Shown: positions 6,987 to 9,086 of the stretch, piece by piece | Layout: each line of letters starts with the position of its first letter | Position numbering within the stretch: position 1 is the first letter of the stretch | Source of the DNA: a virus | IMG/VR virus record: IMGVR_UViG_3300030329_001001 | Coordinates: 1-37,844 of that record | Length of the DNA: 37,844 nt | Reading direction: 5' to 3' (one strand) | Translations under genes and position numbers: made by a program | The notes under the pieces: generated by a model | The model's input: only the letters and a program-made list of their open reading frames with translations | Databases searched by the model: none | What the model was told of the DNA's origin: nothing

Positions 6987-7193
6987 ATGGACAGAAAACG
7001 AGGTATAAAAACAAACCACACTTGGAAAGAAGTTGCAGAACGCCTTTCGGAGATAGAGGGTCACAAGGTATCCCACCAAGCCGCTTGTGATTCTGGACAT
7101 AGGTTACTGAAAAGGTTGCGATATAAGTTTTTAGCTGATCCTGTTATTAGAGATTGGCTGCTAGACCAAGGAATAGAGACTGAGGATTTATGA
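6987..7193 (+). CDS. Small HTH protein resembling sigma-70 region 4
   Basis: 68 residues. The segment HTWKEVAERLSEIEGHKVSH followed by a basic LLKRLRYKF resembles the helix-turn-helix of sigma-70 region 4, where a T.EEVAERL helix is followed by a recognition helix and an L.KLR end. It contains no other sigma region. It could bind DNA or host RNA polymerase (inference). ATG 6987 follows TAGGAG at 6975-6980 with ideal spacing, and the stop overlaps the methyltransferase ATG at 7190. An overlapping ORF in another frame (6902-7090) lacks a comparable start and is rejected. Confidence 0.7.
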   Translation: MDRKRGIKTNHTWKEVAERLSEIEGHKVSHQAACDSGHRLLKRLRYKFLADPVIRDWLLDQGIETEDL

Positions 7194-8293
7194 AACACAA
7201 AGTATTAGATTTATTCGCAGGTATTGGAGGATTCTCTTTAGGTCTTGAATCAACTGGTGGTTTTGAAACTACAGCATTCTGTGAACTCGATAAGAAAGCA
7301 CAGTTGGTACTGAAGAAGCACTGGCCAGATACACCGATATACGAAGACATTAAGGAATTAAATTATGAAAGACTCAAAGCAGACGGAACTGTTCCCACAG
7401 TCATCACAGGGGGATTCCCCTGCCAAGACATCTCATGTGCAGGAAAAGGTAAAGGCATCAAAGCAGAACGCTCAGGGCTGTGGTCAGAGATGTTTCGACT
7501 CATCCGAGATGTACGGCCGGCGTGGGCAATTATTGAAAATGTATCAACCCTCAGATCTAAAGGACTTACCTTGGTCTTACAAAATCTCAGCTCGATCGGG
7601 TATATGTGTGAATGGCATTGCATACCCGCTAGTGCCGTTGGTGCTCCTCACCAGAGGGACAGGATTTGGATTGTGGCACACCCCTCTAGCAAGTGCGACC
7701 AGCCCATCATACGAGAAACGTTATTCAGGTGGAAAGCCTCGAAAGCATCCAATACCGAACCTAGCTGCGGAAGTACAAGAGGGAATACCCTACTCAGTGA
7801 AGTCAGCAATGAGGAAAAACCCAACAATAATGTGGCCAACCCCGACAACGCAGGAGAACGAACATCCGAATGCGAAGATAGACCCAAAAACAGGCAGAAG
7901 GATATGCTCGGACGGGAAGACAACATACAGTCTGAACCTAGCGGATTCCGTGAAGATGTGGCCGACACCGTCAGCTCATCCGAGAGGCCCACACAAGGGA
8001 AACATTTCGGGGGAGGTTTCATCGGACGGCAAATCAAGAATCTCAGCGAACGGAACGAAGTGGGGAGCAACCCTACAAACAGCCGTCCATACACAGGAAG
8101 CGAAGTCTGGGAAGGGGGATATTGGGCAGTTGAACCCAACGTGGGTCGAGTGGCTCATGGGATTCCCAATCGGGTGGACAGACTTAAGCAACTCGGAAAC
8201 TCAGTAGTCCCACAGATTCCATATCTTTTAGGTTGTGCGATACTATCTACAGAAACATTAGATGCAGCGGGGGACACCAATGGAAATTCATGA
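7190..8293 (+). CDS. DNA (cytosine-5) methyltransferase
   Basis: 367 residues with the ordered motifs of C5 methyltransferases: I DLFAGIGGFSLG (7-18), IV GGFPCQDIS with catalytic C78, VI ENV (116-118), VIII HQRDRIWIVAH (154-164), then a hydrophilic variable region (about 165-310) where a target-recognition domain would sit. A C-terminal conserved block (VEPNVGRVAHGIP...LGNSVVPQ, about 314-342) includes motif X-type residues. It would methylate cytosines in phage DNA, probably as protection from host restriction. No cognate endonuclease is present. The variable region has recurring VAHP, VANPDN and VADTVS words that coincide with WPTP-type words in the ORF nested in another frame (7365-8207). 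The ATG overlaps the previous stop. Confidence 0.9.
   Translation: MKHKVLDLFAGIGGFSLGLESTGGFETTAFCELDKKAQLVLKKHWPDTPIYEDIKELNYERLKADGTVPTVITGGFPCQDISCAGKGKGIKAERSGLWSEMFRLIRDVRPAWAIIENVSTLRSKGLTLVLQNLSSIGYMCEWHCIPASAVGAPHQRDRIWIVAHPSSKCDQPIIRETLFRWKASKASNTEPSCGSTRGNTLLSEVSNEEKPNNNVANPDNAGERTSECEDRPKNRQKDMLGREDNIQSEPSGFREDVADTVSSSERPTQGKHFGGGFIGRQIKNLSERNEVGSNPTNSRPYTGSEVWEGGYWAVEPNVGRVAHGIPNRVDRLKQLGNSVVPQIPYLLGCAILSTETLDAAGDTNGNS
7365..8207 (+). CDS. Nested overlapping ORF inside the methyltransferase gene (280 aa)
   Basis: A 280-codon ORF lies entirely inside the methyltransferase in another + frame. Its ATG at 7365 follows AAGGAA (7352-7357) by seven bases. The product shows patterns I recall from many annotated phage/prophage proteins: TELFPQSSQGDSPAKTS (7-23), GTGFGLWHTP (98-107), MWPTP at 156-160 and 198-202, and a C-terminal block LNPTWVEWLMGFP...WTDL (256-274). 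Those words lie over methyltransferase motif IV, motif VIII, the VANPDN/VADTVS words and the C-terminal block. It may be a real overprinted protein of unknown function, or a shadow of constrained methyltransferase codons that is widely mis-annotated. Translation is unproven. Confidence 0.5.
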   Translation: MKDSKQTELFPQSSQGDSPAKTSHVQEKVKASKQNAQGCGQRCFDSSEMYGRRGQLLKMYQPSDLKDLPWSYKISARSGICVNGIAYPLVPLVLLTRGTGFGLWHTPLASATSPSYEKRYSGGKPRKHPIPNLAAEVQEGIPYSVKSAMRKNPTIMWPTPTTQENEHPNAKIDPKTGRRICSDGKTTYSLNLADSVKMWPTPSAHPRGPHKGNISGEVSSDGKSRISANGTKWGATLQTAVHTQEAKSGKGDIGQLNPTWVEWLMGFPIGWTDLSNSETQ

Positions 8294-9086
8294 TGTTGTC
8301 TTTTTTAGTGGTGGTGTAAGTTCTTGGGCTGTAGCGAAACGTGTTGCTGAAAAGTATGGCACGAAGAACTTACGGCTCTTATTTACAGATACTTTAATAG
8401 AAGATAAAGACCTCTATCGTTTTCTTACAGAAGCCGCAGAGAATGTGGGAGGTAAACTTGAATGGATATCAGAAGGTCGAGATATTTGGGAAGTATTCAA
8501 AGATGTTAGAATGCTTGGAAACTCTAGAGTAGATCCCTGCTCAAGAATACTTAAAAGAGAAATTGCCCAGAAGTGGATTAAAGAAAACTACCCAGACCCC
8601 ACAAGTGTACGACTTTGGTTGGGGATGAACTGGGATGAAGACCACCGACTTGTGAGATCTAAGCGTTACTGGAAACCATACCCAGTGGGGTCACTTCTTA
8701 TGGAGAAGCCCTATATGACTCAACCCCAACTTATAGAGTTATTAGAGGCTGAAGGTATAGAACCTCCTAGACTCTACAAATTAGGCTTCCCTCATAACAA
8801 CTGTGGGGGTGGATGTATTAAAGCAGGTCAAGCTCACTTTCGTCATCTCTTAAAAACGCTGCCAGAAGTATACAAAGAGTGGGAAACTAAAGAAGAAGAG
8901 ATGCGACAGTATCTAAACAAAGATGTTTCAATTCTTAAAGATCGTAGGGGTGGTACAACAAAACCTTTAACACTAAAACAACTTCGATTACGAGAACCCC
9001 AAGAATGTGATATGTTTGAGTGGGGCGGTTGTGGTTGTTTTTCGGTAGATGCAGAGGAGGATACTAATGACAACACTGATAATTGA
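8280..9086 (+). CDS. PP-loop ATPase, PAPS reductase-like family
   Basis: 268 residues from ATG 8280, chosen because GGGGGA lies at 8269-8274. An in-frame ATG at 8262 precedes that site. The N-terminus VVFFSGGVSSWAVAKR (7-20) is the pyrophosphate-binding PP-loop (SGGxxS), followed by LLFTDTLIED typical of PAPS reductase-like and thiolation ATPases. Six cysteines could be catalytic or bind a metal/Fe-S cluster: C87 in DPCSRILKR, C175 and C179 in NNCGGGC, C243, C251 and C253. Family members activate a substrate by adenylation. In phages their substrate is generally unknown. Location between a DNA methyltransferase and the DNA polymerase suggests nucleic acid modification, but assimilatory sulfate metabolism cannot be excluded. 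Confidence 0.85.
   Translation: MEIHDVVFFSGGVSSWAVAKRVAEKYGTKNLRLLFTDTLIEDKDLYRFLTEAAENVGGKLEWISEGRDIWEVFKDVRMLGNSRVDPCSRILKREIAQKWIKENYPDPTSVRLWLGMNWDEDHRLVRSKRYWKPYPVGSLLMEKPYMTQPQLIELLEAEGIEPPRLYKLGFPHNNCGGGCIKAGQAHFRHLLKTLPEVYKEWETKEEEMRQYLNKDVSILKDRRGGTTKPLTLKQLRLREPQECDMFEWGGCGCFSVDAEEDTNDNTDN

Follow-up and report, generated by a model that had tools for sequence, protein, structure and literature searches.

A stretch of viral DNA of 37,844 nucleotides (IMG/VR record IMGVR_UViG_3300030329_001001, positions 1 to 37,844; hereafter the window) carries a C5-cytosine methyltransferase (C5-MTase) gene within which a second frame stays open for 280 codons, which raises the question of whether that inner open reading frame (ORF) is a gene or a shadow of the conserved sequence around it. 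A preliminary description of the window had placed the ORF at 7365-8207 and left both outcomes open. Its coordinates, +1 frame, and ATG start were confirmed, and the words it quoted from the two frames are all present and overlap pairwise as claimed. The inner ORF, called beta here, is a real, separately started gene. Together with the outer gene, alpha, it very probably encodes, as far as the sequence can tell, a C5-MTase built from two polypeptides, of the same kind as M.EcoHK31I: alpha would be the catalytic chain and the nested beta would provide the recognition region and motif IX. This goes beyond the preliminary description, as the overprinted partner most likely completes the enzyme encoded by alpha, much as in M.EcoHK31I.

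7190..8293, + strand: alpha subunit gene, C5-cytosine methyltransferase (367 aa, ATG start; motifs I-VIII and X)
7352..7357, + strand: Shine-Dalgarno-like AAGGAA of beta, 7 nt before the beta ATG
7365..8207, + strand: beta subunit gene, phrog_1008 family (280 aa, ATG start, +1 frame relative to alpha; nested)

The nested frame as a gene

The open frame was compared with chance by a permutation test in which the synonymous codons of the outer gene were shuffled, with protein and codon usage kept, and the longest open run in each frame was recorded. The +1 run of 281 codons in the window was reached in 0 of 1000 permutations (shuffled mean, 90.5), and the +2 run of 59 codons showed no excess over the shuffled 55.7. 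In 74 viral methyltransferase ORFs picked by their outer protein only, the median +1 run was 250 codons versus 101 simulated; the +1 run was reached by 0 of 100 shuffles in 57 of them, and +2 was again without excess. Canonical single-frame C5-MTases were used as a control, and 15 of 17 had no +1 excess. In the two exceptions (L285 and L286), the +1 frame is open for 161 and 165 codons over motifs IV-VIII, lengths reached by 0 of 300 shuffles; these are possibly relics of a nested form. They come from Streptococcus phage MM1 (L285, 1498-2655) and Lactococcus phage D6867 (L286, 1498-2724), which have the target recognition domain (TRD) and motif IX in frame 0. A +1 ORF over IV-VIII of MM1 is annotated as a "putative methyltransferase."

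The start of beta is conserved as well. The AAGGAA site that had been reported for the inner ATG was located 7 nt ahead of it, and an AGG/GGAG-type element precedes the beta start in nearly all close relatives listed. In the 30 codons before motif IV, an NTG codon (ATG, GTG, or TTG) with a Shine-Dalgarno element was found in +1 in 147 of 184 loci, against 11 of 184 in +2 and 17 of 184 in frame 0, the control frames. In the window and in ten of its close relatives, beta starts with ATG, GTG, or TTG at one place; the alpha residue whose codon ends there varies (Y, N, G, S, V, or L), with its wobble base kept as T.

Selection was measured in 66 disjoint homologue pairs (68-96% identity), with changes sorted by their effect in both frames. 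For the inner frame, omega was 0.98 over motifs I-III and 0.99 over motif X, where alpha alone codes; within the overlap, it was 0.77 [0.67-0.87] over IV-VIII and 0.53 [0.45-0.62] from the TRD to motif IX (TRD-IX). For the outer frame, the corresponding values were 0.17 over I-III, 0.23 over IV-VIII, 1.14 [1.06-1.25] over TRD-IX, and 0.25 over X. The inversion of constraint was present in pairs at or above 80% identity and in those below it, and the inner omega over TRD-IX was still low (0.67 [0.55-0.85]) in 11 outer-selected pairs. Substitution rates by outer codon position shifted from.19/.12/.50 over I-III to.29/.09/.16 over TRD-IX. Along the gene pair, the constrained frame passes from outer to inner and back to outer, and over the C-terminal half, the beta frame is the constrained one and the alpha frame is a free rider. 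Because the outer frame is unconstrained and the inner frame conserved over TRD-IX, the recognition region is placed in beta. The sequence-based checks that had been proposed for the inner ORF came out on the side of coding: it was open in the homologues found, and purifying selection on it was confined to the overlap.

The view that beta is an untranslated shadow of conserved methyltransferase sequence draws on a set of results that weigh against a nested second subunit. The N-terminal words of beta lie on motif IV, the beta frame is under mild selection across IV-VIII, and in the 11 outer-selected pairs, the inner omega over IV-VIII was 0.91 [0.70-1.13], which is not significant. Taken alone, beta has no recognizable fold: AlphaFold 2 (AF2) with 119 homologues gave a poor model (predicted local distance difference test, pLDDT, 59.5), which matched no PDB fold at Z>=2. 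Since the two canonical exceptions have long +1 ORFs over the same motifs, part of the N-terminal resemblance of beta could be a motif IV shadow. However, synonymous permutation never yields the ORF, the conserved start and Shine-Dalgarno element are particular to +1, and in the Rickettsiales-type relatives described below, the WPTP part remains open in +1 even though motif IX is in frame 0. Moreover, an unconstrained outer frame over a conserved inner one across TRD-IX is the reverse of what a shadow would leave. The shadow reading was rejected because the selection test contradicts it, and it is considered extremely improbable. Of the two outcomes first put forward, permutation, selection, and start conservation support the overprinted partner.

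Domain content of the two chains

The features on which the assignment of domains to alpha and beta depends are as follows.

7409..7426, + strand: alpha motif IV GGFPCQ with the catalytic Cys, over beta GDSPAKTS (G75, P77, C78, and Q79 invariant in alignment A2)
7640..7687, + strand: alpha motif VIII GAPHQRDRIWIVAHP, where the alpha-dominated part ends (conservation in A2; position-specific substitution rates shift downstream)
7674..7685, + strand: beta block 1, WHTP (recurrent [WLF]PTP pattern)
7688..8122, + strand: alpha linker, over the DNA of the beta recognition region (disordered by AF2, outer frame unconstrained)
7833..7844, + strand: beta block 2, WPTP (recurrent [WLF]PTP pattern)
7959..7970, + strand: beta block 3, WPTP (recurrent [WLF]PTP pattern)
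8130..8168, + strand: beta putative motif IX LNPTWVEWLMGFP, from pattern, place, and frame switching (canonical form L[TS]Pxxxxx[LI]QGFP)
8180..8218, + strand: alpha motif X region RLKQLGNSVVPQI, outer frame (G336, N337, and P341 invariant in A2; outer omega 0.25)

Alpha matches PF00145 in Pfam (E 9.7e-46) and phrog_363 in PHROG (E 1.4e-74) and has motifs I, IV (PC), VI (ENV), VIII, and X of the PF00145 family in a single chain. The outer frame had been described as containing all C5 motifs; this holds for I-VIII and X, but motif IX and the small recognition domain of the single-chain form were not found by hhalign, AF2, or selection. An hhalign comparison of 80 alpha proteins with canonical C5-MTases matched over I-VIII (E 1.8e-42) and X (E 1.7e-4), with no alignment between VIII and X. 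The AF2 model of alpha has a confident large domain (residues ~1-170, pLDDT mostly >90), a disordered stretch (~180-330, pLDDT ~37-57), and a C-terminal helix (342-364, pLDDT >90), and Foldseek matched it to the HhaI fold over 167 columns. The small domain is the part of HhaI and HaeIII that contains both the variable region and motif IX (PMC3404938). An alpha chain that has neither this domain nor motif IX should depend on a partner.

The family of annotated phage proteins with which the preliminary description had linked beta exists as phrog_1008, "DNA methyltransferase," which beta matches with an E of 2.5e-20 and which is matched by 119 of 119 aligned beta homologues. Compared with the sequences in PDB by phmmer and by profile, beta had no hits. 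Its [WLF]PTP blocks number 1-6 per protein with a median spacing of 35 aa (three proteins have none by pattern), and proteins with more WPTP blocks have a longer span (Spearman 0.69). It is hypothesized that these blocks are tandem recognition modules, several per enzyme, as in multispecific phage methyltransferases.

In the proposed mechanism, alpha would supply the S-adenosylmethionine site, the motif IV Cys, motifs VI and VIII, a disordered linker, and a motif X helix packing onto the large domain. Beta, started in the +1 frame from its own ATG and Shine-Dalgarno element, would supply the recognition region with the WPTP blocks and motif IX. The two chains would then assemble into one active enzyme, sharing out domains that are joined in the single chain of a canonical C5-MTase, and we infer that they form a complex in which both are required for activity. 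In the phage, such an enzyme would methylate phage DNA, probably against restriction.

Motif IX and the three layouts

The C-terminal sequence LNPxWVEWLMGFP of beta agrees in length and key residues with the canonical L[TS]Pxxxxx[LI]QGFP and sits between the TRD and motif X. When 248 ORFs were searched with a regular expression, motif IX was confined to +1 in 202 and to frame 0 in 20, stood in both frames in none, and was matched in neither in 26; within this last group, most of the loci inspected by eye carried +1 variants of motif IX. A position-specific scoring matrix of canonical motif IX put the LNP site as the top window in 102 of 119 beta proteins, a result that is supportive only, as absolute scores were low and ~12% of shuffled proteins equaled the median site score. 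The Rickettsiales-type relatives have motif IX in frame 0 beside motif X, with the WPTP part still open in +1. Their ERLNPDWVEWLMGFP...LGNAVVPQIPE aligns without gaps to the canonical RVTPRECARLQGFPD...FGNSVSVPV, with a weak score. Given this weak frame-0 alignment and a nonsignificant beta profile, the homology of motif IX rests on pattern, place, and natural frame switches, from which LNPxWVEWLMGFP would appear to act as motif IX.

Frame-0 motif IX beside X was seen in L099, L100, L103-L107, L109-L111, L113, L114, L116, L118, L120, L207, L211, and L221, some of which sit in Rickettsiales records. Two further loci, L228 and L231, have a frame-0 motif IX with no motif X downstream and look frameshifted or broken.

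A third arrangement occurs in Mycobacterium phage Rebeuca (L282, 1495-2488), in which gp80 ends after motif VIII and the +1 gp79 spans TRD, IX, and X. Three layouts therefore exist, in which beta comprises TRD, IX, and X (M.AquI-like), TRD and IX (the window; M.EcoHK31I-like), or the TRD only. It seems likely that a large branch of phage and bacterial C5-MTases has a +1-encoded specificity domain, often made of tandem blocks, with motifs IX and X switched between frames in these three ways.

The Rebeuca arrangement also bears on how the second frame is reached, since a shift from gp80 into gp79 would restore the order I-VIII-TRD-IX-X. This would be consistent with programmed +1 frameshifting after motif VIII, giving an alpha-beta fusion in place of internal initiation. 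A fusion of that kind is nevertheless quite improbable: an NTG codon and Shine-Dalgarno element are kept in +1 upstream of motif IV, selection acts on beta over IV-VIII, ahead of every position where a shift would be useful, and in the window, the shift would lose motif X, which is back in frame 0.

Beta could also be a real overprinted protein with a separate role, as a regulator or as an anti-restriction or anti-defense factor, and here the profile searches count in favor of the alternative. No significant match linked beta to canonical methyltransferases in hhalign, and Pfam searches of the 119 beta homologues gave scattered single matches with none to C5-MTases. On the other hand, an alpha without small domain and motif IX should need a partner, and M.EcoHK31I provides a precedent. 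That beta has motif X in Rebeuca and is without motif IX where the Rickettsiales-type alpha has it fits best with one shared enzyme, and a separate role is judged unlikely. The two-subunit reading of alpha and beta is preferred for these reasons.

Known enzymes, spread, and annotation

M.EcoHK31I (Escherichia coli, YGGCCR) is likened to the locus by layout: it is one C5-MTase from two polypeptides with motif IX in the smaller, as proposed for the locus, where the smaller frame lies inside the larger gene, with I-VIII and X in alpha and IX assigned to beta. Lee, Kam, and Shaw reportedly found in 1995 that EcoHK31I beta is read in an alternative frame from the alpha gene. M.EcoHK31I has been called naturally split (PMC3439449), with motifs I-VIII, X, and a predicted TRD in its larger polypeptide and IX in the smaller (PMC3404938); the position of the TRD is a difference, as the recognition region here is placed in beta. 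M.AquI is also a C5-MTase made as two polypeptides, split within the variable region (PMC3404938), and resembles the Rebeuca gp80/gp79 layout, whereas the genes of the window are nested, with motif X in alpha. Canonical single-chain C5-MTases (HhaI, HaeIII, and Dcm type) share the large-domain fold and motifs I-VIII and X with alpha but differ in having TRD and IX in the same frame and, mostly, no +1 ORF excess. C5-MTases split between motif VIII and the TRD can complement (PMC5944983). The kind of enzyme is thus known; its breadth, the evidence for a recognition domain in beta, and the three layouts of IX and X are new. A literature search, with most subscription papers outside it, returned no paper in which the phage family is described as nested enzymes of two subunits.

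The family is widespread. Searches with tblastn returned 57 phage records for the beta protein, 221 for a divergent member from Escherichia phage Ivi, and 572 for Rebeuca gp79; matching stretches numbered at least 599 in the viral collection and 234 in the bacterial genome collection, and a plasmid search gave 5 records. In 87 beta-selected phage or viral loci, the match was in the +1 frame of a methyltransferase, and no stand-alone beta gene was found among the 247 loci examined, 247 of which had a methyltransferase match. Five of the loci (L193-L195, L197, and L198) are copies of one nested methyltransferase locus in a single uncultured Roseovarius genome record.

Both frames are annotated in several phages, for example, as "DNA-cytosine methyltransferase (x2)" or "putative Mte8-like protein," and members of the beta family (phrog_1008) appear as annotated genes overlapping alpha in Paenibacillus larvae phages, K1ind3, K1G, and PhiXhv-28. 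These overlapping phrog_1008 and "Mte8-like protein" annotations state no relation between the two frames, and the one given here is our proposal. Many phage entries named as a second "DNA methyltransferase" or as "hypothetical protein" probably represent the recognition subunit of the enzyme whose gene they overlap. Specificity studies restricted to alpha would then overlook the domain that recognizes DNA. If the proposal is true, these genes would rank with the most widespread families of overlapping genes known, with constraint moving between frames within one gene pair. They give a large natural set of long-lived overlapping genes, with constraint passed from frame to frame, and a test case for overlapping-gene methods. 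They would also add naturally split methyltransferases, a type in use for targeted methylation (PMC3439449).

Also in the window, a 274-aa ORF (8262-9086) matches a phage phosphoadenosine-phosphosulfate-reductase family (phrog_424, E 1.2e-51) and overlaps the end of alpha by 32 bases.
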